NCBI GenBank assembly: GCA_021234535.1
Contig: CM037843.1
Span: forward strand, 2,188,820 to 2,252,819
DNA from: Stichopus chloronotus
Lineage: Eukaryota; Echinodermata; Holothuroidea; Aspidochirotida; Stichopodidae
Direction: 5' to 3'
DNA: 64,000 nucleotides
Of the stretch, positions 2,978-58,918 are shown piece by piece. A model generated the notes under the pieces. That model saw nothing but the letters and a program-made list of their open reading frames with translations, was not told the DNA's origin and made no database searches. How positions within the stretch are numbered: position 1 is the stretch's first letter; the number at the start of each line of letters is the position of its first letter. Both the position numbers and the translations under genes were made by a program.

Positions 2978-3170
2978 ACCATATACGCGCGTGGCATTTG
3001 TAAAACATGAAACCAGCCAAAACCAGCCAAAACCAGCCAAACCCAGCCAAAACCACCCATGACCAGCCAAAACCACCCATAACCAGCCAAAAACACCCCA
3101 AAACACCCAAAACCAGCCAAAAACACCCCAAAACAGCAAAAACGGCCCCAAAACTACCCAAAAGAAGTCA
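2978..3170 (+). repeat. AACCAGCCAA tandem-repeat element, copy 1
   Basis: A flank reading ATACGCGCGTGGCATTTGTAAA is followed by ACATGAAACC, then a tandem array of about 10-bp units (AACCAGCCAA, with variants AACCACCCAT and AACACCCCAA) running to about 3170. The same flank and array occur in inverted orientation at about 20866-21025. The array is open in several frames, which gives artificial Trp/Gly/Phe-rich reading frames; these are not genes. It is likely the terminal array of a dispersed element. Confidence 0.8.
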
Positions 3171-3179
3171 AACACAGCT

Positions 3180-6100
3180 ATAATAATTCAACATGGTGAA
3201 AGGAAATGTTGCCGTCTAAATATCAGGTGACTGAATCCGGTCCGGCCCTGTTTTTTTTTTCTAGCGTATACAGCGTCAGAGGTATGGGTTTGCGAAATTT
3301 TAGATGCCTTGCTTACTTGAGTGTTGTTTCCTTCAAGGTTGCTAGTTTAAGAAGATATTTTTCAAAAGTCATTCATGTCTAATTGTTTAACGTTGTCAAT
3401 GATTGCGATACATGATACTGGATAAAAATGAATTGACTTGAACACAGACTATATATGACCCAGCCAGAAATATCTGACCGCCAGTGTCAAAGTGGCCCAC
3501 GGAGGGCCACCGGAGCCACCTGGTTGAACAAAATCTTGTATGATTATATGCAGTCGAGCCAATGGCCCTTTCTTCGGCGGACCGGCTGCGTGGTCACCGA
3601 GGTCAGTTCTTCGGTTGACCAAAGTTTGCTATCAGAGATATGGGACTGAGTAACAAAGAATTTGATTTAACCTGGGCTTCCCCTACTGGAGTGCTTGGCT
3701 TCTATTTCAACAATGCCATGTCTACCCCACCTCCTCCCACCCCATCTGCCCATACTTTTAAGGCTGTCTGTCAATTCAGTTGCAACCTTATCTTCCTCCT
3801 TACATTTTGACCAGCTGGCTGTGTAAAGACTCTCAGGCTAATGACATATTGCTGCAAGACTTTATCAATGTGACAAGTTCATCCCAGAAATGTAACAAAG
3901 TGTCTCTTTTCTTAGGATGTCAAATCATTTGCAGCTAGTTTAGCAACTGAGTGTAGTTATCAACTCGAGTCTCTACTTTTCTAATAGCAGAAATTCCCTG
4001 AGTTTTCTATCTTCTCAGAGAGAATTGGAGGGTTGTGACTCAGTCACGACTTGGTTTTGTCTGTGGTTTATTCAGGTCATGCAAAGGCCCACGGATGAAG
4101 GGATGTGCTTTGCTTTTGTAAAGGTGTATAATGGCTAACAAAAAATGATCATGAAAAGGGGAGTTGGGCTATAAATTCAAATGAACTAGTGAGACGTTTC
4201 ATCTGGAACCTTCTTTACAAGGGCATCTGGATTTCGAGACATCGTTTGCATCGTTGGTTCATACTCATCCTACAATCTGTACCTGATTTTTCACCTGTGC
4301 TGCAATTGATGGAATATCATGGCATGCTTACCAGGAGTATACACAGAGTGTGATGTATCTAACTACTATCTCCCATAAACTGACGATAGATTAAAAGTCT
4401 GACTGCTGCATTCACCAATGAAACCTCGACTCTTGGTATATTAGTTGAGAAATAACAAATTACAGGGAGCTTTCATAACAGTCATGTAAAACTCTGAGTA
4501 ATGGGGGAATAGTAGAACACTCGAAAGAAAACAAAAAACGCTTGAAACGTTGAACGAATGCTCTAGACCGCGGTACAGAGAGTATGAACACAAATGAAGC
4601 AGCGTAAGTTTTTATCCTGTTTCATTTAATTTATGTTCTTTATTCCAAACCTTTGAATCCCTTTAATGCAGCACAGTCAGTGGTAAAGAACTGACAAAAA
4701 CTTCCAACGTTCAAAATACAACTTATATGCATCAGAATATGATTTATGAACTGCTGAAGCAAAAACATGATACTACATGATAGGATAAAGAAAGCGAAGA
4801 CAGATACCACAGAAAAAAAAAACATTGAAGTGGATGTGTTGCCCTAAGTGTTAATCAAAGCACCATATTTTCCTTGAAACAACTGAACCCACCCCCACTC
4901 TGCCCACTTATGGACGTTCCTTGATGACTCTGGACAAATTTCGGTAGACCGAGACTAAAACTTCATGTGGAGTGGAGGCTTCACGAAGACGATGTTCAAA
5001 GGTTATACATTTCAAGATGTTTTCACTTCGAATGACCTACTCACAAGTTATTCAAATATCACTTCAAAAGAGTTAAGCGGTAAGTTTGCTTTTTCACTAA
5101 AATTGGCCTCAAATTACTGTCCCTGTTTACTTGAGAATAAAGTTGCTTTAAAGCTTGATGATTAGGAAAATAATCTATACACAATTTAAATTTGGCATAG
5201 TTAATATTTCAACTTCTGAACAAACACTTTTGCTTTAAAAGAGACCCTTAACTTATAGGGTTGTATTACAAGGGGAGGAAAATGAATGTTAAAACTACTA
5301 AAGAAAAACGTATACTAAGTATTGTTCTTGTAACTCCAGCTATCTAATTCAGTAGTCTGTGATGTAATGCCTGCCCTACTCAATTTACCCCCTTTTGTAT
5401 TATTTTACACACTAGGTTCCGAGGCAGAACTGAATTACTTTATGACTCAACTATACAAGCTGTCCAACATTCTCTTCAACGTACAGTAGAGTTACCTGCC
5501 AAGTCTCTGTGAATGCTACAGTAGCTGGAGAATCCTGTATAGCCCTCACATAGGACGATATACAAATACAGTTACTGCAGTAATTATACACTTCCCATGC
5601 CATAACTCTTACTAGTATGAATAATAGAGAGGAAATAACTCCTCCCCAACATAATACCAGAGACTAAGCCCCTACATAGGTCTGTTTCATAACAATGTAA
5701 AATTTCCATAACAAACTTTTTGTTTGCAAAAAGAAAAGCTATAAAAAAATCACAATTTTCCTATTAGCAAAACGTACTACCAACTTTACTAACTGGACAG
5801 AAAGCAATGAAGGAACTAGTTGCAATTGATATTAACAGCCAAAAAATCATTACTGACTAGTAAAAGAGGTGTTCAAAACTTATTTAAAGACAGTCAATGC
5901 TCCAAAATGAATTTATAATTCAAGAGGCTACAGTATATGCATTTCGTTTGAAGTACAGTACATGAAAGGAAGATACTACAGGTTAACATTAAAGATACGT
6001 TCAAGAAGACAAACTGCTTGTTAAGGAGCGCAGTTCTTAACTAGTTCCAAACGGCACTAGTTTTACAAGCATGCTGTATGAATGAGAAAATAGAAGGAAT

Positions 6101-6231
6101 GCAAGCTCATCCAATTTTACAAAGTAAATCACTGTTAGTTTGCCTCAGACAGCTAAAATGATCCTTCCTCACAAAATACCATGTATCAATAAAGTGATAA
6201 TTGATGATTGTAGGTGCTAATGAGGCATGAT
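3180..6231. other. Intronic DNA without recognised features
   Basis: AT-rich DNA within the SET-gene intron. The only local structure noted is a 7-bp hairpin at 3492-3510 (GTGGCCC / GGGCCAC). I saw no coding region, and no clear end or terminal inverted repeat of the nested element downstream (on its strand) of 6232. Short reading frames here have no recognisable motifs. Confidence 0.5.
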
Positions 6232-9200
6232 TTACAGTTTGTAGCCGAATTCTCTCTCTAATAACGTCAGGTGTCCATGCTTTAGGGAATTTTTCACTTC
6301 ATCAGTTATCTTCATTAAATTTAAAGTGAAGTAGGGGTGTCTAGGCAATATGCATTTTTTGAGGTCTAAATGATAGTAGGCATTCCTTGTTCGGCTAACA
6401 GTTGGCACCCATTTCCCATCTCCATCTGGGTACATGTAACGTTCTTCATGTTTCAGGCAAATATCAAACGGAATTGCAACAAATTTTGTAGGAAAATCAA
6501 CCTTGCAAGTAGCGCATACCCTTGTTTTCTTTCCAGAGAGATACTCTAAGTAAAATGGGTTCTCATTGTGGTAAACCTGGGAAAATTCTGCCTGTGGTAG
6601 AGGTATTCTTTCCCTTGTCAATTCCACATTCACATCGTTTTTCTTGCTCCTATACCTTTGTTTCGGTTTCTTGCCTCCATTCTTGGGTAATTTGTCCCTG
6701 TAAAGGGCTGACAAATTTGCTGGTCGCTTCCTTTTTCCCAACCATTGAATGTAATCTGAGAGTCTTCCTAATATTTGAGCAACTGCAACTGCATGTGCAC
6801 ATATCCTTGTGCTAGCAAAAAAAGCACATTCACACTTCATTTTATTGTCCTCAAATACAACAAATACTGCTGGAGACTCTGGAGAGCTTTTCTTTTGCAC
6901 ACCTGGATCTTCTGTAGAGAGTTTATTGGTAACCATCCTCCCATTAGGAACATTACCAGGTACAGGCATTATACCATTTTTTGAATTGAGTAACCTTTCA
7001 GCTTTCTCCCAGATTCCACCAAGTGTGGCTGCCGATACGCATATACCTGTGACAGATGATGCAGGAATTGTCAACTTTACATAAGTTGAAGAATTTTTTT
7101 CTGGTTGCAATAACTGTCTACATTGTACATTTTCAGCGACTGAGGACACATTGGGTTTGTATGAAAAAAACTCCTTTAAATGAGAAGACCTTTGAGCAGA
7201 TGTTTTGCACCGCCAAACATTTGGTGGAACTCTAAAATGCCCAAATTCTGAGCTCAGTGTATATTCTCCTGCACTGAAGACTGCCTTTTGAGCTTCTGCA
7301 TACTGACGATCCACAATTTCATACTGTTTTTCATTGAAAACTACCCATTTGTTTCGCTTCCAATCTACTGACTGCTTGCTTAAAAAATTGACACACTCTA
7401 TACTATTCTGATTGTAATAAGCCGGGGGGCAACCCAACCCTGCTTGTTCCCTCACCGACTTAATCATCTTTTGCATCATTGGAGTTGCCTTATGTTTTAC
7501 AAAATAACCGGCAAACTTAGGTTACTCATTCTTTGTACACTGTGATTCAACCAAATTCCACTTTGGAATAAGAACATCAAGTTTGCATTGAAAATCATAC
7601 TCGCTATCAGCATCTATTAAGCCTCTGCTAAACAGTGGTCCTTCCTGTTTGCCGAAAATGTCATACATGATTTCCTTAGCTTTTTCATCAGGAAAGCTAA
7701 AAGCTCGTAATTTTCTACGGATATTATCCTTAAAATGGTTAGTGCACAATAAATTTGTAGCATCACCACCAAGACCTTTTCTAAGACCTTCAAATATATT
7801 TCGTTCATCATCAGTACCAATAAACTGAATATTTTCCAAGTGTGGGGAGAATAATTTGAGCTCGCTCCCTAGAAAAGAGAAAGGCTCCTCATCGCGATTA
7901 AAATGAACAACGCAAGGACCCATGAATACAGGATGCTTTCCTGTTTTGGGATTTATAAGACTAAGGTTCTGGTAAGCTGTGTTTGTTACATAGAAATCAC
8001 CAAGGTTGTATGTTGTATCTACGCTAAATATGCAACAAGATCCACGCACTGTACAGAATCTTTCAATATCCTTTACTTGTTGGTCAGTAAAATTAACCCC
8101 CATTGGGCCATTCTCTCCCAATTTAATATTTCTAACAAATCTACGTGTGGCATCAAGGTGTAGCTGTTGCTGGGATATGACCTCACCCAACCAATCATTA
8201 CAATATTTTCCCCTTTGTCCTGCTAATGAATTTGCTCTGTTGATGTCGTACAGTTGTTGGCGATCTCTTGGTTCTACAGATGCGTCCATAGAGTTAACAC
8301 CTCCAGCATCTTCAAAGGTCTTTCGATAGACCTCGCCATAAGAATGGTTCCCTTCCAGGGACATTCTCATGTTTTCCATAATGCTTTGCTGAGTGCGAAT
8401 GTACTGCCTTGCTATATGCTTAGAATTGCCGTGTGGCTTTATATCAATTTTTCCTGCTTCACCCTCCCAAAAGTAGTGAATAAGCATGTGATCAAGCCAT
8501 TCATTTGCATGAAGTGGTCTTACTGCTGTCACAACCCGTTTATAATTTTCATTGCTTTTGTTCATGGCATAATACCTCTTCAAAACAAATACATATTGCG
8601 AATCAACATACTTATCATGATATGATCAACCAATCCTGGTTTTCAAAACTGGTTCGTTAAATTCTGTAATAGACACTTTGCTTGCCATTTCAACCTTTTG
8701 TGAAGATGAACTAATAACAGCATAGTAATTCCTCGTGGCTGTTCCCTGAACTTTCCAAGCACCACAGTTACTAGAATCAATACTATCTTTCACAATTGTG
8801 CGATTGACTTTGAAAGAACAACTCTGTGGAACACCATTTACAAAAGGTGGCTTAGGCACTGATGAACATATCAAAGAAGTCTGCTTATCACGCACCAAAG
8901 TATCTATTAGTTCTGCAGCAGAGTATGGTTCCTTCCGAAATTCATAAACTTTATTGACAAGTTCTGATGGCACCGTACCTGTCAAGTCACAGACTGGTAC
9001 CCTGGCTTCAATATCTGAGTCTTGACTAGAGGTTAATTTGGCCTTGCTTTGGCCTGAAGGTTTCTCTTCAAGTTGATCATAGCTTTGGCTTGCACAGTCA
9101 CTTGATTGAGGATTCTGTTCCTGCTCCTCTGAATGACTTTTACGGACTTCTTCATTCTTGAACTGTTCGTCTTTTAGTCCTTCCTGAACGTCATTTGGAA

Positions 9201-9247
9201 GACAATCTTCTGTAGTCTGGGTAGTCACTTCATCCTGTTCACAAACC
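6232..9247 (-). pseudogene. MULE-like DDE transposase with SWIM zinc finger, two in-frame stops
   Basis: One continuous frame of about 1005 codons is broken only by TGA at 8628-8626 and TAA at 7524-7522. The order of parts is: (1) an acidic, Ser/Gln-rich linker (about 9247-8950); (2) a possible FLYWCH/WRKY-like DNA-binding segment (CGAWKVQGTATRNYYAV, about 8765-8710); (3) a transposase core (7522-8583 region) with catalytic-type Asp in VDTTYNLGDF, a second Asp in FIGTDDERN about 70 residues later, and the CTNHFKDNIRRKL helix typical of MULE/MuDR cores; (4) a SWIM zinc finger CECX8CAH (about 6810-6850); (5) a C-terminal Cys/His-rich module (CATC...CLKH...). MULE transposases cut and paste DNA by DDE chemistry. 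The third acidic residue was not placed with certainty. Coding sense resumes in the same frame after both stops, so they look like point mutations. No start codon lies near the N terminus; the frame opens at an acceptor (AACAG|G at 9248), suggesting it is spliced to the upstream kinase-protease exon. Confidence 0.7.
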
Positions 9248-10806
9248 CTGTTAATCAGAGGTAGTTGGTATAAAGTGAACTATACAGGTATACTGTAAGC
9301 TCCGTAGTGAGCACAGATGTACAAACCAGACAGTGCAAAAATACCCCTCCTGCTGAAATGAACATATTTGCTTCTATTCTCCTGTTTTGTTCAAATTAAC
9401 AGTGTTTCAAACTAAATTCCTGCCATTACAATTTAGGATCAGAATGTCTAGGATCCAGAGATCAAATAAAACCATTTATACCATACTGATAACAAACAGA
9501 CTTCAAATTGCCCCAAATGACCTCTGACCACCCAAATCCAGGGGCATTCACTAAGAGGAAGGGCCCAGGGTCAAATCAATTTTTGTTTTGTTACAGGGGT
9601 ACTTTTTCCAAGCAATCTAATGATTAAAGTTTCATTGAAATCCGAAGCATGGTAATCAAGATATGTCATCACATTTTCAACAAAACGTGATCTTGAAGCA
9701 AGCATATATCATATCATACCCTCACATTAATGAACATTCTTTTGTTTTTATGTCACATTTTTAACCTTTTTTTCCCTCAACAATCCCATATTATGCAAAT
9801 GTAATTGTCCAAGTGGCTTTACAAACTTACTGTAGCTACCATAAAGTCCTAATTACTTTAAGGTCAGCACAACAGACTAAAAAGCCAAAGCCAATGCATT
9901 TCTGGTCAATGCAAGGAAGTGATACAAATTTGCTGCCCTCAAGATTACTTTAGAACACAAATCTAATAACTTTATTTGCTGGTATTTCGAGAAATACATG
10001 TCCGATTTGGAAAGAAGCTTTCAACAGATTATATAGATACAATTCCTCTTTCACATGTGAAACTTATTTTTGCCTGAAACCTTCCTATAAAAGTCCATTG
10101 ATATCTTCAGTATGACATCCATCAAAGTTTTCATGTGAGAGGAATAATGTTTACAAAGTTTGGACTTGAGCTCTTATGACAACCTTTGACTTCCACCTTA
10201 CTAAATCAATATACGCCATACTGTACACATATTACTTCCCGTGGCTGAGATTGTTTGCAAACTTTTGATCTTGTGACCTTTCGTAACCACAAGGATTCCT
10301 TTACCTTGGCAAAAACAAACAAGACCATCTATACTCAATGTGGATTACCAACTTGCTAAGTCTGAAATCCATTGAAATTTCTATGCTTGATATATCATTT
10401 TTATGAGGCTTCAATCCTTTGACTTAGAATGACCCAGTCATAACCTTGAACACCACGACCAAAATAGGGCCCAGTAAGTTAATATCTAAAAGTCAAGTAT
10501 AAATGTCATCAAAGATCCTCTGCTTGAGACAGTGTTGGCTGAGGGATTACAGTTATCCTGCAGCTACGTAGCTCAAAAGTTCCCCCCAAACAATTAAATG
10601 AACCGGAAAATTCACTCTATTATTTTCCAAAAAACAAGAGTAACATAGCAAATACAATTCTGCTCAGCTCCACACAAACCTCAGAGGAAACTCATCATCT
10701 CTGACTACCCGAATAAAACACACTCTCCTAAGTTTTCATCAATGGGATTTAAAGATCCATGGGTTTTAGACAACATACAAAGATACATACAAAGATTTAT
10801 AATTAC
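9248..10806 (-). other. Predicted intron joining kinase-protease to transposase
   Basis: The donor AAAAG|GTAATT (10807/10806) lies at the very end of the kinase-protease frame, whose stop TAA is inside the donor. The acceptor is ...CTCTGATTAACAG|G at 9248. The upstream exon ends with AG and the downstream one begins with G, so splicing gives AGG (Arg) and keeps both frames open. The 1.56-kb interior is AT-rich and carries several diverged copies of TGACCTTTGACC-like words (about 9517, 10185, 10275, 10425), which look like fragments of a common dispersed repeat. No coding sequence was recognised inside. Confidence 0.5.
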
Positions 10807-12589
10807 CTTTTATTCAATACCATAAACGATTGCACACTTGAGGGTTTAACTCCACTTGATTCCATTCGTTTCCAAATCCACTGGCAAATCCTTTCTGCTG
10901 TTGTGGCATCGACAGGCTCATATACTAGTATTAGACTATTTCCATTACCTCCGACTGTTGTTGGTACTGGATGGGTATCTATTACAATCAACTTTCCTTC
11001 CATGTGAATAAGGGTAAGTATCAGTTGGCCACATGTAAAAAATGTTGCCGTGTTCTCAGTAGCTGTTTGCAACTTCAAAATGCAGTCATGTAATTGCTTT
11101 TTACCAGCAGTTGACATGTAAGAGAACTGACATAACATTTTTTCTTCAAGGCTAAGTGAATTCTTTGATACAACTCCACATTGGCATAGTATAGATAATG
11201 CTTCTGATATATCATACATTTGTTCCACATTTCTTTCAGTATTGAAATGGTATGGAGCATTTACAATAATTTTCTCCACTTTTGCCTTCAGAGAATCTAC
11301 AAAATTATGTTCAGTCTCTGTTTCTTTGTAATTCCATCCTAGTAGATCAACTGCAATGCACAGTGACAGGAAGGAGCAAGCATTGGTGCCATCATTAGCT
11401 GGCCATGCACCTGGGTCCACACCTTGACATATTTTCTCATCATAATAGGTCAGAGCTGTACTTTGGCTTACAGACAGTTGTATACTGATTTTTCTGTCTG
11501 ACCCTGTGACCTTTTCCACAGATCTCATGCCTGAGCTGGATTCATCTTTGTCACTTCGATATTTTGGATGCTTTAATGTTAACATTTCCACAACTTCATT
11601 TGCTAGAGGTCGGCAAGAGACATCAAATGAGGTACGTTTGTCAAACACATGTTCCAAATGTTTCCACTCTGAGAGATGAAGGTATTTGTACTTTGTGGAT
11701 TGCTAGGGTTTTTGCTTGTTTCTGAGTAAACTTTCAAGAATGGAAGTCCAATTTTGACCTGATTGGAAAACTTCTTTCGAATATGGTGCCTTTAGATCTG
11801 GGTTTATTATATTAAATAATGTCATCCCAAAAGACCAAATATCTGCTTTTTTAAAGTCATCATTTGTCATACTAAGGTTGCATGTAGGTGGATGTTTTAT
11901 TTCAGGTGCCATGTAGACTGGTGTTCCTCTTTGAACTCTAGAAGTATGTGTCTGCACCAAGGTCTGGGTCTGAATGAGATTTGACCGACTCTCTCCGAAA
12001 TCTGTCAGCTTGCATATGATGGGGTTTTCTCTAATTAGTGCCGCTCTTTTCAGTGAATCACCTTTGATAAGGTTATAATGTGAATTTGAAACTAAAACGT
12101 TTCCTGGCTTGAGATCTCTGTGCACAACATTTTTCTCATGCAAATACTGCAATCCCTTTGCTACATCTAATGCAATGTTTGCTGGAAAGTTTTCAAATCC
12201 AATAAAATCTGATGTTCTGTCTACAAGGTCCAAAAACTCCTTGAGTGAACTTACTATTTTATCTGCCCCAAACAACTGAAAGTCAAAAGATATAAACTCA
12301 AGCATTATTGCAAGTGGCTCATTACAAAAGCCTTTGAAAGAAACAATATTCTCATGTCTCAATGCTTGTAGAATAGCTGCTTCTTTCTTAAAACTCTTCT
12401 CCTCATCATCTGAGTTCATCATTCCAACTTTTTGACAACTATCTTCTCTCTCGAATACGTTCCTGTAAACACAGTGCCATAAGAACCATTCGCAAGATAC
12501 TGCAGATCGATGACGTCTTTCCACAGGAAACTCTCACCTCGATGAACTTTTCCTTTCTTTGTCCCAAGCTTTGGAATTTTGAAAGCCAT
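10807..12589 (-). pseudogene. Protein kinase plus papain-like cysteine protease (C76/tegument-DUB-like) fusion; one frameshift, one stop
   Basis: About 594 codons. The ATG at 12589-12587 is in strong context (AAGATGG) and is followed by a glycine loop (LANGSYGTVFTG) and the ATP-binding Lys (IVVKK). The frame then meets a stop at 12421-12419, while the kinase continues in another frame from about 12425: helix C Glu (FKKEAAIL), HRDLKPGN, DFGES, YMAPE and DIWSFGM. A TAG at 11705-11703 interrupts the C lobe, but the conserved subdomain-XI part (CRPLANEVVEML) follows in the same frame, so kinase and protease were one protein. The kinase is Ser/Thr or TKL/RIPK-like. The protease part has a Cys motif (DGTNACSFLSL, about 11390-11360) and a D-x-H motif (IDTHPV, about 10980). 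That arrangement resembles the herpesvirus tegument deubiquitinase fold (peptidase C76) more than classical USP or OTU. Activity on ubiquitin is inference only. The frame ends at a splice donor, GTAATT. Confidence 0.7.
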
Positions 12590-14371
12590 CTTGCCACTGC
12601 AATGTCATGCATGAATAGGAGATAAAAGTGTTTATATTATCTGCAGTGATGCAACAAGCTGATGTAGGATTCATTCTAGCACTCATTAAAGTTGATCTGA
12701 AAATAAAATATACAAGGTTTTCACAACTTGAACCCAAATGACCAGAGGCCTCTGCAGAAAGCAGTAAGGTACTTTCGCTCAATAGGTTACAGCAATATAT
12801 CCCATGTGTCCAAGCTTCCCTTCTTGAGATATCATGTTCCTAATATTTTAACAATTTTACCCTATTTGACCTTTCAGGAATGACCTTTGACCACCATAGA
12901 AACAACGGTATTTTTCTACTTAATATAATGCATTGTAAGGGCAAATTATCAAACATTTCCATGATTCCCAAATCCAGATATTGTGTTAACATTGTTTTCA
13001 ATTAGTTCCTTTGGTTTTAAAATTGTTGCAACATTTTTAGAGCAAAAAGCTTTTCTATGGTATTTCATTACTTCATGGCCACATTAGCCTTCTGTGGGGG
13101 CCTCTAAGATTTATGTCCCAGGTTTGAGAATTGTCAGGGTTTCCTTGCGTGAGATATCATGCTAACAAGCAGAGTGTAACAAATGCACCCACACACATAT
13201 ACGCATACACATGCGCCATCATGAATGTAAAAGTTTCTCCTATCATAATAAAAAAGGAGCCTTGACACAAGTGCCTTTAAGGTATGACCATGTTTGAAAA
13301 TAAATGATTTTAAGTTATTTACTACAATATTTTTTTTCCATTCAGGTCAACCACGATTGTGGAAAAGAAAATAGCTGTCAGTACAATGATTACTTCAATT
13401 ATTTTTTTAAAGTAGTTCAGTGTTTCTATTACGATCTGAGAACTTACATCCCAGGAATGCAGCCACATTAAAAAGTATGCGTACCACCAAAAATCCTTGA
13501 GTCCTCCCATCTTGAAAATGCATATGAGTTGCATGCAATACATACAGTAACTGGCACTGTGTCAACACTATACCATATCCAGTGCTACTATTCTTACAAC
13601 AAAGTAACATACGCGAAATGTTAACAAATGTGAATACCTTCAATCACACTAGCTTTGTACCATTCATTACCAACCACTTAAAAAAAATACAAACAATAAA
13701 ATAATAAACCCAAGTGTGACTACCCAGGCTGCCTGTGCATTTACTTCAGAAAACATTTAGTCCCATACCTAAGCTTTCAACATAATGTTAGTATATTACT
13801 GTGGGTTTAAAATTGCAGCAAAAGATACAATGGTTTCCTAGGGTCACATAGGCCACCAAACCTGCCACAATTAGAAGACCATGGGAAGAGAACTGAGAGC
13901 TTATCATAATGAGTCATAACAACTATTTCACGGTTATATTAGAAAGCTCATACAGAAAGAATATCACAGCAATCACAAAAATTCATGTAAGTCCTAACCT
14001 CATGAGTTTTGTGCACAAACATTTTGCAGCTTACCCAAAGAATTAACCACTGTATTAAACTCTGTGTCTAAGTGCAGTGGTAAATTGCTTACACAAAACT
14101 CACTGGGGGTCTGAAGAATTTTGTGTTGCTTTGGTACTGAAAGAAATGTTTCCAAACTGCTGACTATTAGCCAATAGGATCAACCCAATAGGGGGAAAAT
14201 AGACAAACTACAGAGTTTCTTGTATCTCTGCTATCAATGTGTTTGGGCAGACTTTTCTTTGTAATCCTGTAATATATTGTGTTATGATTGGGAAGATTTT
14301 GCACTGATCTTGACTGCAAATTTGAGAAGGAACATAAGCACATATTGGCTTTATCACTCTGCACTTAAAGT
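12590..14371. other. Intronic DNA with dispersed repeat fragments
   Basis: Upstream of the kinase ATG the minus strand has a stop codon in frame at 12607-12605, so the coding block begins at 12589 or at an unseen splice junction. Between about 12790 and 13210 two related modules share GAGATATCATG (about 12827 and 13149). Nearby words TGACCTTTGACCACC and a CACACACATATACGCATACAC tract also look like parts of a common dispersed repeat. No gene or clear terminal inverted repeat was found. Confidence 0.45.
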
Positions 14372-14510
14372 GATTGCGTGTGTGCTGAAAACCAAGAAGA
14401 TAAGATCATGTTTGATCTTAACTTTTTCTATATTTTTAAATGTACACACAAGGTTGTACATGAACGGACTATGTCTTTCAATGAAGGAAAATGACAGTAA
14501 CTTCTTCGAA
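14372..14510 (+). repeat. Direct repeat, copy 1 (about 140 bp)
   Basis: This segment matches 15579-15733 in the same orientation. Shared blocks include ATGTTTGATCTTAACTTT, GGTTGTACATG and CTTTCAATGAA, then AAAATGACAGTAACT. By eye identity is roughly 80%, apart from an extra pyrimidine-rich stretch in copy 2. Both copies give a short similar peptide frame, but most base differences change the amino acid, so it behaves as non-coding repeat rather than a conserved exon. Confidence 0.7.
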
Positions 14511-15578
14511 AAGCAATAGGATTGGCATAAAAACAGTAAAAAATAGACATCATATTGGAAAATTAACGGTTCTTACTATAAGCGCCTACATAATGAATAT
14601 GCAGCAGTACAGGTCTCACTAGTGTATCAAAAACATACTACTCAAGTCATCGCTCCTTTGTAGGTATCAGGAATTGTAGTATTTGGTGAAAGGAAGCACT
14701 GTATTTACAAATAACCTACCAATTGAACACAACATTGCGATGTCAGTGATCCTGAGTTGTTTTGACTAACTGAATATTCAATACTAGTATTTTTCATATT
14801 GGCTTGCTCAAAGAAGCACACCGTTGATTTGAATGAAAACTGTCAACCACTACATTATCGTATTCTACACTTTTTTGTTGTTATGTTAGAAGAATTTAAA
14901 ATCATATGGCAGAATTAACAAACTGAAACCTATTTTTTTCCCAGATTGTCTGAATGGTGTAATTAAAAGCCTTAACAAACTTTTGGAGATGAAATTTCAA
15001 TGTTTTTACTTTCAGCATACTCACACAATCACTTTTAGGGAAAAGGTATAATACTTCAAGGGGGTTTTACAGATTTTTTGATTTGGTGATTAAGTCATTA
15101 GAAATGTTGCATCCCGTAGATGCAAGCAATGGGAGGAATTTGTGTCCCTCGGTGAAAACTGGACCCAGGATCCTGCATTCGTAAAAAAAAAGCTGCAGCA
15201 AATGTAAGCATATTTTGGTCATTAGTAACCACCAACTTATGTCTAAAGTTTTTTGTAACTTTTCAAATTTGTTTGACCGATTCATATCAACTAAGATGGC
15301 ACAAACACAAAAACTTAATTAGCAGACTTTGTAGTTTATGCCATCTTGGTTAATGAGGATCAGAAAAGAAATGACTGAAAAAAAATATGTTAAAATAATT
15401 ATTGCTACATCCTGGGGGATTTTCCGAATGAGTTAAAACTAAGGTTTATGAACTATTTTTATAAGTATTTTATTTTGGATTTCCACCATCTTGGTTGACC
15501 TGTATTCCAAAGTGATACATATTATTGAAACATTTGTAGTCATTTATTCTTAAATATCACCGTAGGCTATATTAAAAA
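14511..15578. other. Spacer between the two direct-repeat copies
   Basis: AT-rich DNA with no recognisable gene. The spacer may be single-copy sequence caught between two insertions of one repeat family, or part of one larger element; the sequence alone does not decide. Confidence 0.35.
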
Positions 15579-15733
15579 GATTGTGAGTGTACTGAAAAAG
15601 CAGAAGGATAAGACTATGTTTGATCTTAACTTTCACTTTTTCTCTTTTTTTGTGATACTTTCAAATGTACATGTGAGGTTGTACATGGACGGACTACATC
15701 TTTCAATGAACAAAAATGACAGTAACTACTTTG
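15579..15733 (+). repeat. Direct repeat, copy 2 (about 155 bp)
   Basis: Partner of 14372-14510. It contains an extra pyrimidine-rich insertion (about 15630-15662, CTTTTTCTCTTTTTTTGTG) absent from copy 1. The two copies lie about 1.2 kb apart in direct orientation. Confidence 0.7.
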
Positions 15734-15739
15734 ATTGCA

Positions 15740-17150
15740 GGTTGGGTGCATGCAGCATATTTTCACATTCCTGTTGCTCGTGCTAAGAATTACAAGGTTA
15801 ACAACATGCCCTCTCTTTCTCTAGCAGTTCTTTCAAATAACCTTAGTTTCACCTGGTTATTGTATGCCTTCCATAGCAAATTTAGGCCTAACATTTACAA
15901 TAACAGGTACACCAAAGCTTGTCTTATTAGGCTAACCAGCGCCAAGGGTCTAGAACTTGAACAGACCAATTGGAAGTTGGCCTGGGCCTATAGCATAATT
16001 GTAATAATATTAGGCCTAAAATTATACTGGAAATGTGATTCCTTGTTTAAATTTTGGACTTTTTTTTTCTTTTTGGCATGTCTTTAGTTTAGCCTTTGTC
16101 TAAGCTCATTTATTCGGTGAAACATATCAAGTAGGCCTATATCGATGTAAACCCATACGCTGTTTAAGTATCTGGAATGATCAGATTGTGCCTATATTAA
16201 AGGATCATGCTATTACAAGCCTGAAAGACAAGACAAAGCTGCGTAGCCTATAAGCTATATTGCTAATTGGAGAAATGCAAGCTTCACGCACTGCACCGAT
16301 GGATTATGGGATTGAAAATGGATTATCGTTCACATGATGGAATTTTTGCCTATGTGCAGCATGCACACATACCTTGCCTACGGTACCTTCAGAGGTTTGA
16401 ATTGCTTTTTGGATGCTTTAAAATCTAGAGAGTTTTTATGCATGAAAAAGGAAGAATTTAAGTTATTTCTTTCTATGAGAGGCGTTGTGCTCGGTACTGA
16501 AAAACACCACTGATGACCTTGCAGGGCATATTGGGCCGAAAAGCTTGGACTAGGCCTAGAGCCGTGAAACAGAGTGATGAGGAGGCAGAGGTTGTGACTG
16601 AGAGATCTAAGCAACAAACATTAGTGCTTTTTGGAGGAATGGTCCACCTAAGGCCTGAATGTATTTCATCTGGTTGGGAGGCATCGACAGAGGGTTTGCC
16701 ACTTTGCCTGACACCACAAGAGCTCATATTGATAGCAAAGTTAGAACTGATAATAGGTGGCTCAACAATGTAAATGTTCATGTAATGGGTACAATAAATG
16801 CTGGTTATCTGGAATGGGGTAAGTTTACCCTCTGGACCTGTTGGCTTTCCCCAGGCTAAATTTTCGTTACTTTCCTCCCACTGAAACTCCACACTAAGCT
16901 ACACACTCAACCTGAAAGTGTATTTTGTAAAACGTAATGCTGTACCTAGGCTAGAGTCCTGTCACCTTAGCTCCTTAGCAACGTGTGTGGGGCTGTTGAG
17001 CCCTTTGTCTTAGGGTTCCTTTATAGAGAACCCTACTTTGTCTTTCCAGTGTGCATTGCATGTATAGGCTACGCACTCGTCGATTAGCAACATAGCTAGG
17101 CTGGGGCCTAGCTTTAAAGTTGGTACAAGAGTGTATAAACAGGGAACAGC
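15740..17150. other. AGGCCTA-rich DNA, no supported gene
   Basis: Many TAGGCCTA-like words occur here (near 15891, 16011, 16132 and 16551). Open frames of 86 and 139 codons exist on opposite strands over 16473-16892, but neither shows a motif I recognise and no convincing splice sites bound them. The region lies inside the SET-gene intron. Confidence 0.4.
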
Positions 17151-17202
17151 CATGTAAGTGGTGTTATCCACTGCTGTTACCTTGTGTCCAAGCGCGCCTA
17201 CT

Positions 17203-17341
17203 ATGCCGGACAAATCTGATAAGCGTGCTCAGGATCCGAGCTTGAACTTACCGCCAACAAACAGTCTTGGCCGTCCGGACAACAAAAACACGTCACCAGC
17301 TTCACGCCATCGGAGACTTTTACAACTTGACTTCAGAATGT
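17203..17341 (+). CDS. Possible short coding exon, unrecognised
   Basis: An ATG at 17203 opens a frame of 47 codons (MPDKSDKRAQDPSLNLPP...), polar and Pro/Ser/Arg-rich, ending near a possible donor (GAAT|GTGAGG at 17340). The stretch is richer in CpG than its surroundings. At 17397-17427, just past it, two CCAAT-type boxes face each other (GTGATTGG and CCAATCAC). This could be a first coding exon of an uncharacterised plus-strand gene, but no downstream exon was found. Chance is a serious alternative. Confidence 0.2.
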
Positions 17342-17396
17342 GAGGCCCAGTAGATTCATGTACGCAAAAACTACAAATGTAGATCTTAAAACCTTC

Positions 17397-17427
17397 GTGA
17401 TTGGTTGGATGTTAACCAGCCAATCAC
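17397..17427. promoter_or_regulatory. Inverted pair of CCAAT boxes
   Basis: GTGATTGG (17397-17404) and CCAATCAC (17420-17427) form an exact 8-bp inverted repeat and carry ATTGG/CCAAT cores of the type bound by NF-Y. They lie in a locally CpG-containing stretch. Promoter function is inference. Confidence 0.3.
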
Positions 17428-18034
17428 AACTCACGACACGTTCAACGTAACGTTTGGGTGCAGAATTCTTAACGTGTACTTTGACAATGACTTCCCTCAT
17501 TGCGTTTGCCTTACGACCACTGTACTGTGAGATCACTGCACGTGTTGACAGTAGATACTTCGGTTAGGGGCCACTGATGGGTGTTTAGATGTAAATACAG
17601 TAATTTATGTGACCGAGTGTAGTGGTACATACAGGCTTACATTGTAATGAACTTTTTCGGTCAGCTATTCACCGCGGAGAAGTGAATTCAGGACGGTCAC
17701 CAAAGAAAAAAAAAATGTAGGCTATGGGCACTCTGAGTCTGGACGTGGGGCGTCACAGCTCACCTACGAAATACAAGAAATTCAGTGACACATTTGCATC
17801 ATCGTTAAGATCATGTGTACTTATGTTCATTTTGTTTCATACCTGAAGTTCCCAACTAAGATACAAACAAAGATTTTTAAGAACTGTTATTTTGTGGTAA
17901 AAAAAAATGCTTAAAATGCGGATCACTCTGATACACGTACAAACTTTCGATTATTTCTTTGTATTTACAACCACGTGCCAAACGAAATCACGCAGGTTCG
18001 AAGTACAGTCAAAATCTGCAGTAAAACATGGGAT

Positions 18035-18235
18035 CAACCCTTCAGTCAGACATATTTTCAGTCAGTCCGACATGTTTTCAGTCCGACAAGTTTTCAGTCC
18101 GAAAGTGAAATGCACATTTTTAGTCGGAAAGATAAACTTTTTTAGCGAGAACGTAGAAAAGACGTTTTCCGAAAGTACACGCTTTGAGTCCGAAAGTTTC
18201 AGTTCGACAAGTTGTCAGTCCGTCATGATTTTTAT
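18035..18235 (+). repeat. Degenerate tandem repeat, TTTTCAGTCCGACAAG type
   Basis: A unit of about 16-17 bp containing CAGTCCGA recurs at least six times between 18041 and 18225, with variants CAGTCAGACA, CAGTCCGAAAG, GAGTCCGAAAG and CAGTTCGACAAG. Spacing is regular at first and then irregular, so this is an old, decaying array. No coding sense. Confidence 0.65.
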
Positions 18236-18239
18236 GTCA

Positions 18240-20860
18240 TCTCAAAACACCTAATATGTATTACTGTTTTTCATGCATTTATTTTTATCTTATTAGGCCG
18301 TATTGAGAAATTGCAGGCATGGAATCATATTTCAAAGCTTCGTACAGCTTGAAACACTCGGGAAGTGCTGTTTCCCGCCATCTGGGTTTGAAAAGCCAAA
18401 AGTTTTGTTATACGGTCCGCGTCAACGGGATGGTGGCGCTCCACTCAGCCCCTCCAATACTTGTTTACCTTTATGTTACGCTCATGGGTGCAGGTGTCAA
18501 AGAAAGTCAATTCTGCAGCCTAATTGGGCGACTAAAAATGGCAAACATGATTCTTTCTAGACAAAGGGGAGGCGGTAACCCATCCCCTTAGAAATCTCCT
18601 CATGCCTCGTAGGTCTATCTGTGGACGGACCGATTTGAATTCCTGGTTCAAGCCTTGGTGGGCGACACCCTACCCCTATTCCCCTCCGTTAGGAAGGCGG
18701 TCAAGTACGTATGCATGAGTCGACTTTGCCCTCAGTTCACAAAGAAAAGAAAAAAAAGAAATCATGCTACACCCCTGAAACAAGATGAAATATCCCCTAA
18801 AAAAGGTAGAATAGGCTATTTGGTGATGTATTCCAGCCAAAGATTTGACACAAATTTGCATCACGCCTGTATTACGTGTGCAAATACCCTTAGCCCCTCC
18901 CTCCATCAACCAGATCAGAGAAAGGCGCCCGGACGAAATTGCACCAGAGGAGAACGCTGGTACGGTGAAATCTTTTGAACATCTTACATCTATGTAAACA
19001 TTCAAAAGTTTGGGTGTCCAAAGTTACGCACCGTAATTTCAGATTCCGCGGCAAGTTCACTCTCCACTGCTGAACATTTGTGGAATACTTCCTCCAGCTT
19101 AAGTATAGGATTTCATTGCTACTAGTTGAATCACCATATGACGTGCGAGAACATAGGCGTGTGAGGGCGACTTTCAACTGATGTAGCCCGCGAGAGACGG
19201 TCAAACCAGTCAGGTCGCATCGTGTAGGATCGTGGTGAAACCTCTCAACATGTGCATGAGGAAGGCATTAGGATTCATGAGAGCGTATTCGCGGTGTTAT
19301 ATCAGGGGAGTTAATATATACAGGCGAAACCTGTGCATGACAGAGAGGTTTACTTCCTACCAATCGGACAATGTATCGCTTTGAGTCAGCAGATTACGAT
19401 GTTGCACTGCGCATACCATGTGATTTATCATGTGCGTGTAGACCTAGCACTTGCCGATAAATGCTACGTAGACCTGTAATATGACACAGCATTGTACTTT
19501 AGGTATGGAACTGAGCACTATAGTCAATAGGCTATACGTGCAGAGCAGCCTGTGTCAACTTATCGAGGGGCGGTTGGGGAGCCGGGGGGTAGGCATTAGA
19601 CAGAATAAAAGACTATAACACCCGAGGAGGGGATGCCACATCCCAGTTTGTTACTCATTTCCATATGCCTTGTGTATGAGTATGAAATACAGTTTCAACT
19701 AGTAGAATTGTGCTTGCCACAAGTCCCTTGGGACTGTGGACATATGCTGCACCCCGTGATTGCAGATCCGCCCAGTAACACATACTACTTAGGCTAATAG
19801 ATGAGTACATCTTAAATGAGATGACACAAACAAATAAGCCTGGCCTAGATGGTATAACGGCACGCACTAAGAGCCACGATGTATCCCTTCGAGAACGAGC
19901 ACGAAACACCACCACAGTGAAAGAAAACTCACACATGTCAAGTAATGCCTGATATAAATTAAGCTACAAACTCTGTTAAAACAGAAGCCGGAGTAATGCT
20001 AGGCCTCATATAATCCGCCAGCAACGAATTCTGGCGGTAAAGATACTTCTTCAAATAGCGAAGTAAAATTAATACGGTAAAAAACAATGAAGAACACAAT
20101 GATCGCACTATATGTCGTTGGTCATGGTATGGTAGTTATCAGTACAGTACACGACTATACCAGGCAGCTTGGGCATTAGCTGCACAGGTCACTGTCAGTA
20201 CAAGCTACGATGAACAGAGTTGCTACTGGGTGGGAATGACTTGAAGCAATCATTTCCTCTATTTTCCCTGAGTGAAAGTCGGTAATATTTCGGAAGGGTA
20301 CTCTGTGTTACACACTCTGATAAGATTCAAGATTCAAGATTCAAAGGGTCTTGCAAGCAGGCTAAAATGGCGATTAGCAGTTAATAAAACAATAGAAATG
20401 TCTGCGTCACTGTTCACCGTTGAATACGTTGAATCTGCATTTTACTTGTGTGCGCAGGAACATATACATAACTATTCATGGGCACCAACGCAGATGTAAA
20501 TCAGAAAAAAAAATCACATGACTCGCTGAGTAAATCCAAGAATCGAAGCTATGGGCTTGGATTAATTCGTTCCTCATAATGCTACCTCAGTCGTTAAGAA
20601 CATAATTTTATTTAAGCCAACATGTATGACGACACATGAACAATACTCTGCAATGCAACCATTAAAAGGTAATAAGACAACAGACAGAAGATCGGCAAGA
20701 TCATACCACGGAAATGCTCCCCCAAATAAAAAAAAAATTCAATAACACATCGAAATTTTCAATTTGAAATGTGCAGGGCACATTTGAGAAGACATCATCA
20801 TGGTAGTGGGTACGTGCAGTACGCCTGTCTGACTCCCTCTGAATCATATTGTATTTCGGC
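18240..20860. other. Intronic DNA without recognised gene
   Basis: Overlapping open frames on both strands (18303-19204) have no recognisable motif and conflict with one another. The stretch 18360-18600 is more GC-rich and looks like a dispersed-repeat fragment. A tandem GATTCAAGATTCAAGATTCAAAG occurs at about 20323-20346. No RNA gene was recognised. Confidence 0.4.
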
Positions 20861-20865
20861 GGATT

Positions 20866-21025
20866 TGGGGTGTATTTGGTTTTGGGTGGTTTTGGGTGGT
20901 TTCGGCTGGTTTTGGGTGGTTTCGGCTGGTTTTGGGTGGTTTCGGCTGGTTTTGGGTGGTTTCGGCTGGTTTTGGCTGGTTTCGGCTGGTTTCATGTTTT
21001 ACAAATGCCCATACGCGCGTATAGA
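20866..21025 (-). repeat. AACCAGCCAA tandem-repeat element, copy 2 (inverted)
   Basis: On the plus strand the array reads as TTTCGGCTGG and TTTTGGGTGG alternating (about 20875-20992). It is followed by TTTCATGTTTTACAAATGCC and ATACGCGCGTAT. The reverse complement matches the flank and array of 2978-3170, 18 kb away in opposite orientation. Here the two 10-bp variants alternate, giving a higher-order 20-bp unit. Confidence 0.8.
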
Positions 21026-52490: not shown

Positions 52491-52563
52491 TGATGTCGTT
52501 CACGGTGACGATGATAAACTACATTGTTTTTTAATTGGATGTTTCATTGTTTATATTTTGCAG

Positions 52564-52939
52564 GTATCTAGTGATCGTCCATCCTCTTAAATCCCGTAAT
52601 TTTAATACGAAAGCAAGAGCCACGAGGAACCTGATCATCATTTGGACGATTCCATTTCTGATCTTCCTGCCGTATTTTTATCCCTTCGAAGTAACCACTT
52701 TCACCCTTATCGGTGACTATGGAGTAATCAAACGGCTCGTCTGCCAACACAAACTAGTGTTTCTGTCCAAGACTTTCGACAGCCTGTATCGAATTTTCCA
52801 ATTCTTTATCATCTTTGTGATTCCTGTGGGACTGTTGTGCTTCACTTGCGGTAGTATCGCAAGAAGGTTACTACATTACACCGATGATGATAAAATGCTC
52901 AAGAATTCGGTAAAGAAAGAAGAAAAGGGAAGGAGAAGG
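52564..52939 (+). CDS. Class A peptide-type GPCR, exon for ICL2-TM4-TM5-ICL3
   Basis: The exon encodes a seven-transmembrane receptor segment acting at the plasma membrane through G proteins. An acceptor (ATATTTTGCAG) ends at 52563; the exon starts in phase 2, giving R/Y then LVIVHPL, the consensus that follows the (D/E)R of TM3. TM4 (NLIIIWTIPFLIFLPYF, about residues 19-35), an ECL2 cysteine (RLVCQHK), and TM5 with its proline (FFIIFVIPVGLLCF) follow. ICL3 is basic and acidic (DDDK, KKEEKGRRR) and ends at donor AGG|GTAAGG (52940) in phase 0. The frame runs past the donor to a stop at 53041, so donor choice rests on GTAAGG and on the next exon starting VAKMVL. Neuropeptide receptor (TRH-, trissin- or galanin-receptor-like) is likely; the ligand class is not determined. 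TM1-3 are missing from the annotation. Confidence 0.8.
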
Positions 52940-54573
52940 GTAAGGAGCTTTTTTATTAACATCTATAAAACTGCTAAAAAAAACAACGTCCTTTTCCCCA
53001 GTTATACCTCCTGCTTAAAACAATCCAATGCTACATCTTAGCCCCCACGGGCCTACCTCCTCCTGTTGATTGGGCGGTACCAGTAACAGTTAAACACCAT
53101 CTAAACGTGGGTGAGCTTCCTTGGTACCTGTGTTTGGAGTGGAGGAGGGAAAGTGGGATGATTAAAAAAAGAAGAAAAAAGAAAAATTAATTACGAGACA
53201 TCTATACACTCGTTCTTCACAGATCTCACCCTCCCATCTCCGTTTCCTTGGTCAGGAATGGCATAACTTGCTACAATGTAATGAGATTTGTAATAATAGT
53301 CCTCCCACATTCCTGCTATATATGCGTGTGCTAAATTGCGTTGTGTTCTTGTAATACAATGTACCCGTTCAAATTATTTATATCTATTTTTTTTTGTCTT
53401 TATTATATTCGACACTATTATATGTGTCTCCTTTCAGTCCCTTCTTTCCCATGTCTCACGCCGTTGGTGTACATTTTCATTCTCATCATCATCATCATCA
53501 ATTGCCCTCTTTGGTATCAACTGGCTAGAGTCTATTACAGCTAATTCAATTCACTTGGAGTAATTTTGTAAACTTATTTCGAGCTCTCAGTCTCTTTCTT
53601 TTTCTTTCTTTTATTTTTGTTATTTCTCTTTCGTCCATAGATGTAACATTGATTTTCGTCTTTTGTTTCCTCGCCTTCCTTGCTTTTTTTCATTTCTTTC
53701 CTTTTAGTTCCTTCCATTTTTACCGTGAGTGATCGGCACATGCGCACACGAATACTTGCCATGCGATGTAATCGTGTCAATCTCTTCCTATGTAGTATCT
53801 CTCTTTTTCTGAAGTCGACACAATTTCTTTTTTTTTTCCACTGTTTCTTTTTGTTGCCGTTTCCTCCTAATCTTGTTGTCTATTTATCTATTTTTTTTTG
53901 CTTTACTTATGCAGTCTCGAACTCGTTGCGAGTAAATGGTGAAAAACTTGGCATCATCTGTACTTTGACAGCTGTACATACAAAAAGGCTGAACATTGAC
54001 GTCTTGTCGTTTGGTGTTTATACTACCGTCCTAGAATCTTCACCTTCGATTAAGTTTTGCTTTCTAAGACGGAGTTCAAGTCACAGATTAAGATTGATGT
54101 GAGGTGGATTCGTCAAAGAGATATCTTATCTTGATAGTTATGATGAAGATCTTTCAATCTCTCAACAATGTGCTACCGCTCTTGAATTGTATACCGTACT
54201 GAATGACCGGTTTAATCTGACATGATACCTGCAGCAGAAAACTAGTTTCCCTCTCCTTCCTACCGGTTTCTTTTTTTTTTTTTTTGCTTTTAGTAAAAAA
54301 AATGGGCTGTTTTAGTAGATTCTTACCATTTTGTTTCTTCTTCATTCATAAGACAGCCCACCTGCTGAATAACTGACAAACAAATATTTTACCAGAGCTG
54401 TCCCACATTTCACTGGAACATGGTTAAAGTTTAAACATGAAATCCTCGATTTAATGTCAACCTCTCTCCTAAACACGATAAAATAAAAGTCATTTATTTA
54501 CTGATAAGTACATAACAACTAACGTACCTGGAGATCTAAACTCAACATCGAAGGAGAATTCACACACACACAG

Positions 54574-56935: not shown

Positions 56936-58918
56936 ATTTCAAAGTCAATTTTGTCAGCAATCTGATAAGTCAATTCCACTTAATTCTTAGGTCAATGACT
57001 GCGCAAATCACATCAATGATGACGACTGGCTCTATTGCATTTTATCGACAACTGCTACGACATTGTGATAAATGTACTTTAAATCTGACCAACCGGAAAG
57101 GGAAAATGGTGCATGGTTTGAGTATGAATGAATACCCACTGAAGTATGTTACTACTGTTCCAGAGGGGGAAGGGGGTGATAGTCAATTTGAACTTTTTAT
57201 GTTAGTCTCAACGCTTTCTCAGTATATCAAGGTAAAATTAAATTATACCGTGGCTGTAAAGAAACATTATTATTGTGATGTCTTTATTATCGTTTTCTTC
57301 TGTTCCCCACATATGTGCGTGTGTGTGTATGTGGGTGTGTATGTGTGTGTTTTATAGCGAGCTGAAATTAGAATATATCTATTTGTATTTCGATTTTGAT
57401 CGTTTGAGAATGGGGTGTATTATTGCCCTATGTGAACATCTGTGGAGCTAAAAGTAATTTGACAAGTCAATTTGGAATGCCTGAAGTGACAGTATTTCGT
57501 CATGGTTAGTATACCTCATTAAAGAGGAAATCAGGGTTTGACTGAGAAAATTCACCTTTAGTTGATTTTTATTTCTAAACTGATTGTTCACAGAAACATA
57601 GAGACGTTGGGAAAGTGTTTGAGGGTAAGAAACGGTAATTATTGCGTTAATTACTGTTGAATAAGAACTCTTAATGTTTGTCGGGTACAAAAAATAAATG
57701 TTCATGTACAAGACAACACAACCTCCTCTATACGATGACCAATCACAGCGTAAGACTGAGATGACATTTATGAATAAACATAACCGAATGTTTACGGTTC
57801 CCATGCTGTACGTCTTCGCGAAAGGAAATTACTCGTATATGCAAACCATACAGCTGTTCACTCACGTCGCGACTTCGATTTTTTTGTTTACTGTTCTAAA
57901 TAGGAAGCCCCACCTCCTCATACCATGAAAATGCGATAGTATTGAATATTCATATTTGATTCGATAAATATGCATGTTACAGACTTTTGGAGTTCTCCAC
58001 CAACTTTTTGCGAATTTGACTAGTTTATCGAAATTGTCCACATGTTTTGAGATAATCTTGATCATGTTTGTTAGGTATAGCTCATTGTACAATACCGGTG
58101 GGCAATTGCAGTGAAATTAATTGTGAAAATAAACCCTGATTTCCCCTTGGAAAAAACCTACAAGATAAGCATACTAAAAGTACAAACAGATGTCTACATA
58201 GTAATGAAAACGTATTACAACTGTGGCCATAAAGGAGGACATAGCATCTAGATCTCACAATAATAGCACAATGCTCACAATCCACTATATATGTCATTTT
58301 TTGTTTGTTTCTTATTTTCCTGTTGTTATTATTATACTTATGCTTTATTTCAAATGACTATACAAGAAATTTCACCAACAAGGGCATTGACGCAAACGAA
58401 TCTGTTTAACAGAAATAAATAAAAAAGTATGGCGACAGAGTGACTTAAATTTGTGATGAATAAGTAAAACATAAAGTCATTGAACTCGAGCACATGGTGT
58501 AATAGGATAAACAATAACATATGTAAGACATTTTATTTTGTTTATTTTCCTTCCTTGACAGAATGGGCCGCAGGTGCATTTTCAAACAAATCAAATCGAA
58601 TTAGGCAATAAAGCAAATCTAGTATCCTATACGTGTTGCACGTAAATGTAACCGCGACAGTGAGATTTGAAGTTACGAGAATTAATTTGCAAATTTACGA
58701 GTTGTGATTACAGACCTAATTGAGAGGAAGTCTACAAATTTTGAATCATTGAATGAGGCAAAAATACAGAAATGATGCAACCAATAATCGTAAAACAGAA
58801 GAACGGATATCAATATCCATAAACTTCTCTTCCCCGTTATCAGTAATTGCGAAATTACAAAATGACAGTATTTTGTTGCTAATCTTGTGAACTAATGTTT
58901 CTTTCATTTTTTTTGCAG

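Follow-up and report, generated by a model that had tools for sequence, protein, structure and literature searches.

The 64,000-nt stretch of the Stichopus chloronotus genome analysed here (contig CM037843.1; hereafter the window) contains an 18-kb Mutator-type transposon. In the reading that we favour, with a probability of about two in three, this element encodes a protein kinase, a predicted cysteine protease and a DDE/SWIM transposase, likely as one protein, and the two additional enzymes would protect the transposase or tune the host response. That kinase, protease candidate and transposase all lie inside a Mutator-like element (MULE) is close to certain. The fusion into one protein, the type of protease and the role of the kinase are predicted with decreasing confidence, as set out below.

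The transposon, its ends and its copies

A first-pass annotation of the window had reported a kinase, a papain-like protease with NAC and DTH motifs and a DDE/SWIM transposase sharing a strand between 6232 and 12589. These coordinates were right, and the strand is the minus strand. Two sets of open frames make up the region on that strand: the first runs from ATG 12589 to 10803 and encodes the kinase and then the Cys/DTH domain, and the second, from 9279 to 6232, encodes the transposase. The annotation had also suspected a mobile element. A search for ends and duplications confirmed this, with inverted-repeat ends, 9-bp duplications and dispersed copies bracketing all three enzymes (Table 1).

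The inverted repeat of the window element covers 133 nt that are 86% complementary to 20877-21009. The element end reads GGGCATTTGTAAAACATGAAACC, followed by arrays of an approximately 10-bp repeat (AAACCAGCCA/AAACCACCCA); at the left end in the window, the first base of the end sequence is T. Reading outward, the match to the window was lost at 2993 in two copies from unrelated surroundings. The end sequence was present at both ends in five copies and, in the sixth, at the single end read. Terminal inverted repeats, a feature of MULEs, were found as a 23-base end with two differences or fewer in the copies read, and the 9-bp target-site duplication falls within the 8-11 bp characteristic of the group.

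Table 1 Features of the transposon in the window
Feature	Position	Strand	Details
Whole transposon	2992..21010	.	18,019 bp; gene on the minus strand; boundaries from copies elsewhere, inverted ends and 9-bp duplication
Left target-site duplication	2983..2991	+	9 bp, ATACGCGCG; sequence read
Right target-site duplication	21011..21019	+	9 bp, ATACGCGCG; sequence read
Left terminal inverted repeat	2992..3125	+	(G/T)GGCATTTGTAAAACATGAAACC and 10-bp minisatellite array, array to about 3163
Right terminal inverted repeat	20877..21010	-	pairs with the left end
Exon A	10807..12589	-	ATG 12589 to predicted donor; kinase then protease candidate; frameshift near 12425, in-frame stop 11703-11705
Protein kinase domain	11580..12560 (limits approximate)	-	HRDLKPGN 12122-12099, DFG 12002-11994, APE
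Papain-like cysteine protease candidate	10807..11490 (limits approximate)	-	motif only: Cys codon 11378-11376, Asp 10979-10977, His 10973-10971
Predicted intron	9248..10806	-	AAAAG/GTAATT ... AACAG/GGTTTG; phase-preserving; 1,559 bp
Exon B, MULE transposase	6232..9247	-	1,004 codons; in-frame stops 8626-8628, 7522-7524
DDE core	7396..8019	-	D 8019-8017, D 7812-7810, C/H codons from 7746 and 7737, E 7398-7396
SWIM zinc-finger motif	6793..6834	-	CECAFFASTRICAH, CxC..CxH; motif match

A DNA search of the genome (719 Mb in 267 contigs) with a 7.3-kb query from the element located the unit, whole or partial, at six sites including the window; the other five copies (C15:2.14M, C5:28.77M, C5:6.01M, C2:13.26M and C15:10.99M) were mostly 95-98% identical. 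The same ends recur in dispersed copies, which places the unit beyond chance. The duplication ATACGCGCG flanks both the window copy and the C15:2.14M copy, and the single flank read at C2:13.26M is the same. Because their flanks are common, the window and C15:2.14M copies represent one insertion that was later duplicated. The other large insertions are flanked by ATTCCTAAG, TCTGATAAG and CGTTTTATA, and perfect 9-bp duplications were found at all seven independent insertions with both ends read (four large and three short).

The gene was broken in each of the six copies read, at sites that partly differ between copies. In the window copy the kinase is frameshifted once, near 12425, and stop codons interrupt the frame at 11703, 8626 and 7522; in sister copies some of these sites are open, and breaks occur elsewhere. 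Internal deletions have removed the equivalent of window 8601-5703 from the C5:28.77M copy and of 9336-4965 from the C15:10.99M copy, both of which kept kinase and protease and lost most or all of the transposase. Since all six gene copies are broken, our model describes the likely past activity of the family and not that of the present copies.

Three observations concern the sequence of individual copies. The C15:2.14M copy (L008, L043, L044), which shares its insertion site with the window copy, differs from it by 1.7% in exon A and by 0.5% in the upstream stretch, so that gene conversion with other copies may have made one member of this pair a mosaic. Directly upstream of the kinase start, about 290 bp (12711-13000) match more than 25 other genome sites at 70-79% identity; this stretch is either an independent repeat or a regulatory piece common to other elements. 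Within the predicted intron, 9548-10090 matches three other sites (L015, L017, L018) at 67% identity.

Short derivatives

With up to two mismatches, the 23-base end occurs at 98 genome sites (54 forward, 44 reverse), and a reversed control pattern gave 0 and 1. The 98 sites form 31 convergent neighbour pairs less than 25 kb apart, of which 11 are spaced 4.79-5.10 kb and six at least 13.8 kb. Besides the gene-bearing copies, three pairs were read. L064 and L065, both among the 11, are elements of about 5 kb that kept both ends and the subterminal parts, mostly at 90-98% identity; the third, a 14.8-kb pair on C8, is a short derivative enlarged by a stretch reading N. All three match the 18-kb element at roughly 1-1000, 1120-1800 and 16676-18018, in blocks 81-98% identical, and are flanked by the 9-bp duplications GATAGCGAC, TTTCCGTAT and AGTTACACA. 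The gene was not present in their readable parts. An autonomous MULE accompanied by derivatives that are moved in trans is the usual picture, and we infer that the transposase of the large element would have been the mover here.

A block of about 1.1 kb made of direct and inverted internal repeats lies at 1203-2282 of L064 and at 2838-3971 of L065, and has no match in the 18-kb element. Two further convergent end pairs are only 71 and 91 bp apart (C2:12962042-12962112 and C13:2108176-2108266) and are perhaps palindromic remnants.

The transposase

Exon B read through its two stops (P0002, residues 200-860 scored) served as the query of a protein search, which returned 23 proteins with E values down to 7.9e-228; the best was P0003 (52% identity), followed by P0004 from Ptychodera flava (45%). 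When P0002 was aligned with 23 of the 24 relatives found (P0019 was left out), residues D410, D479, C501, H504 and E617 were invariant in all 24 rows. The D, D, C..H and E residues are the catalytic residues of Mutator-type transposases. Among the homologs, P0023 and P0025 passed the Pfam cut-off for MULE, and P0007 and P0001 that for Transposase_mut. In a midpoint-rooted tree, in which P0025 forms a long branch, the window sequence groups with P0003 (100/99) and P0004 (100/100), apart from P0023-P0025 (100/100). An Ovarian Tumour (OTU) protease precedes the transposase in P0025, over the cut-off, and in P0024, below it; no kinase occurs in the precomputed domains of the 23 relatives.

The DDE/SWIM assignment of the first-pass annotation holds for the triad, the C..H pair and the SWIM motif. 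At the profile level, the SWIM match of the window itself was below the Pfam cut-off (E 0.031, score 14.3 vs 19.6), its transposase pieces had no Pfam MULE match and its core no significant Pfam match, and the matches above cut-off came from the homologs named above.

The kinase and the protease candidate

The open frame 12533-11706 matched Pkinase (PF00069) with an E value of 4.8e-26, and the first approximately 50 kinase residues of the window copy (ATG 12589, glycine loop) lie in a different frame. In the sister copy C5:28.77M (L009), the whole kinase occupies one open frame (PF00069 E 1e-32, profile positions 6-259 of 263) and includes Lys, HRD, DFG and APE. It is thus the sister copy that bears out the complete-looking kinase of the first-pass annotation; the window copy is frameshifted.

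A protein search with the protease half retrieved three proteins, P0026, P0027 and P0028, each with a kinase in front. P0026, from Holothuria leucospilota, has 586 residues and no breaks, and is 46% identical in the searched part and 51% overall; P0027 and P0028 were 28-29% identical in the same search. The kinase part of P0026 matched 271 PDB sequences at E <=1e-8, STK33 and ULK1 first, and by these matches is a predicted general Ser/Thr or Tyr kinase. HRDLKPGN and DFG on the kinase side, and the Cys of NDGTNAC and the DTH on the protease side, were invariant in all four kinase-protease proteins, counting the window. This retention of motifs at 37-51% identity suggests working enzymes.

The protease candidate of the window shows a Cys followed by the invariable Asp-x-His pattern of VTD deubiquitinases. 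According to PMC9741609, the Asp-x-His order marks the VTDs, which have spread via transposons, Helitrons above all, and is also found in UFSP2 and ATG4. The distance from Cys to Asp is 133 residues in the window and 130, 129 and 129 in the relatives; by residue numbers it is 129 in DrT1-VTD2 and 121 in Wc-VTD1 (PMC9741609). VTDs diverge beyond the reach of simple profiles. From its motifs, the candidate likely works like a D-x-H protease. Whether it is also of the ubiquitin type is a closer call, to which we give slightly less than an even chance, and that it would act on ubiquitin or signalling is a hypothesis we consider good, inferred from the fit of the D-x-H pattern to deubiquitinases.

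One gene or two

Exon A and exon B are separated by a predicted intron, and their joining keeps the frame (K R V C E Q D E). Scored with a rough matrix, the 326 GT sites in 5.25 kb place the donor of exon A second, and exon B contains no in-frame ATG upstream of the conserved part. Because of the rank of the donor, the join that keeps the frame and the absence of an early ATG, we read the unit as one gene, and a single spliced protein of about 1,600 residues, carrying the kinase, the protease candidate and the transposase, is probable. Each of the two splice sites is identical in all five copies carrying it, but this counts for little, as the copies differ by only about 1-3.5%. The one gene-like unit of the first-pass annotation is matched by an in-frame splice pair, as a prediction from sequence.

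Several results weigh against this interpretation or parts of it. No fused protein was found: the 23 transposase relatives all have 1,059 residues or fewer, in a search that allowed lengths up to about 1,757, and in the protein database the kinase-protease and transposase halves occur as separate proteins. P0026, as annotated, has its last residue where exon A ends, and a separate kinase-protease gene would explain this equally well. Differences between copies are not enriched at third codon positions; at the second positions of exon A they are slightly reduced at most. Splicing from a donor at 12537 (GAG/GTGAGA), which scores better, could bypass kinase and protease. The transposase profile gave only four chance-level rows against the PDB (best E 0.03). 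The papain-like protease proposed in the first-pass annotation, conserved as its NAC Cys and DTH are, had no significant Pfam match (searches with the domain alone gave DUF7359 as the best row, E 0.052, in one case and only SelR, E 0.21, in another). One PDB search returned nothing for it, and another nine chance-level rows (best E 0.1), none of them a protease or VTD; its structure models were poor (pLDDT 53 and 40), and fold searches gave no meaningful match.

This donor at 12537 on the minus strand, the best-scoring of the region, lies right where the kinase begins. Read from ATG 12686, it shares its frame with exon B, and a transposase isoform without kinase and protease is possible by this route.

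A rival reading has two genes travelling together within one MULE and yielding two proteins: a kinase-protease gene stopping at 10803, and a transposase gene whose first exon escaped detection. P0026 ends at the KR of exon A and P0027 two residues later (PRSG), the transposase relatives include no fusion, related MULE proteins, P0005 and P0011 among them, start from a Met of their own followed by an acidic N-terminus, and two-gene Mutator elements provide a precedent. However, it is a good donor whose GTAA creates the stop after KR, and its phase leads into exon B, which has no in-frame ATG ahead of the conserved part. We regard two genes as unlikely on this balance, though as the most serious competitor of the single spliced gene.

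A little less likely still is that a host kinase-protease gene was captured by the MULE as a passenger (Pack-MULE) with no role in transposition. MULEs do pick up host pieces, as illustrated by Muta1NA3 with a 276-bp piece of a Ser/Thr kinase gene (PMC5225508), and P0026 may be an ordinary Holothuria gene. On the other side, no host donor for the protease half was found, as all seven matches of a genome search with it lay inside copies of this element, and the frame spans both domains fully, on the same strand and in the same phase as the transposase. A domesticated host gene family in place of a transposon is very improbable: the window, C15:2.14M and C2:13.26M copies, with their common flanks, did arise by segmental duplication of one insertion, but a separate 9-bp duplication flanks each of three further large insertions and of the three short derivatives, and every gene copy read is broken.

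Proposed mechanism

In the single-gene reading, removal of the 1,559-bp intron would place the kinase-protease and the transposase in one chain. The transposase would bind the minisatellite ends, cut, and insert the element with a 9-bp stagger, and would do the same for the derivatives of about 5 kb without the gene. The protease could strip ubiquitin or a ubiquitin-like tag, most simply off the transposase itself, which would then escape degradation. The kinase might phosphorylate the transposase or a host regulator, so that transposition would be timed or licensed; this exact role of the kinase is doubtful. Together, kinase and protease would help the element to act on, or hide from, the control systems of the host cell. 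More broadly, we propose tentatively, at a little under even odds, a deuterostome MULE lineage with a single protein of about 1,600 residues, in which a live kinase, a deubiquitinase-type protease and the transposase would have been kept for long as an aid against host control.

Comparison with known systems

In the usual view, the transposase is all that a DNA transposon supplies, and signalling and protein turnover remain the business of the host. KI-MULE has a plant host and carries a protease of the Ulp1 type.

MULEs are rare in animals according to a survey of 100 animal genomes (PMC8277862). The present element resembles the animal MULEs Muta1, Phantom, Ghost and Curupira in its MULE transposase, in the SWIM motif known from several of their clades, in target-site duplications within 8-11 bp, and in the often long inverted repeats and non-autonomous derivatives with the same ends (PMC5225508, PMC6446971). 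Unlike them, it is 18 kb long and has 10-bp minisatellite ends, and its gene also holds a kinase and a candidate protease of the D-x-H kind. A MULE survey lists Ovarian Tumour, SET, FAR1 and other extra domains, including the OTU-bearing MuDR-6_HM, and its main text contains neither the word "kinase" nor the word "protease" (PMC6446971). MuDR-6_HM, P0024 and P0025 are alike in having a ubiquitin-type cysteine protease ahead of a MULE transposase; they differ in that OTU is another protease family, in having no kinase and, for P0024 and P0025, in belonging to a separate transposase clade (100/100). KI-MULE likewise links a MULE to a cysteine protease, which is a different one, and no kinase is named for it (PMC8277862).

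The VTDs of Helitrons, herpesvirus tegument proteins and cnidarian fusions share with the candidate the order of Cys and Asp-x-His, a similar spacing and carriage by transposons, whereas no significant sequence match to them was found for the candidate, which is carried by a MULE and not a Helitron, and is fused behind a kinase (PMC9741609). Neither "kinase" nor "MULE" occurs in that paper. The mosquito element Muta1NA3 also combines kinase-gene sequence with the MULE family, but there the kinase part is a fragment of 276 bp, and the element that holds it is non-autonomous and 1.6 kb long (PMC5225508); the gene of the present element includes the full domain.

The literature searched showed no MULE that encodes a kinase domain as part of its own gene. 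Within the searches made, such a MULE is novel, and kinase plus D-x-H protease form a new accessory set. If the proposed reading is true, a cut-and-paste transposon would manipulate host signalling much like large DNA viruses do. If the protease is of the ubiquitin type, it would add a third case of such transposon-borne proteases, after OTU in MULEs and VTD/OTU in Helitrons. The Holothuria protein P0026, with its unbroken frame, is a concrete testable protein, and the question it raises is which target the two enzymes would have: the transposase, repair or silencing.

Other content of the window

Outside the transposon, two rhodopsin-type G-protein-coupled receptor exons, belonging to one gene or more, were found on the plus strand at 52535-53041 and 58883-59698 (7tm_1, E 4.1e-15 and 1.8e-8).

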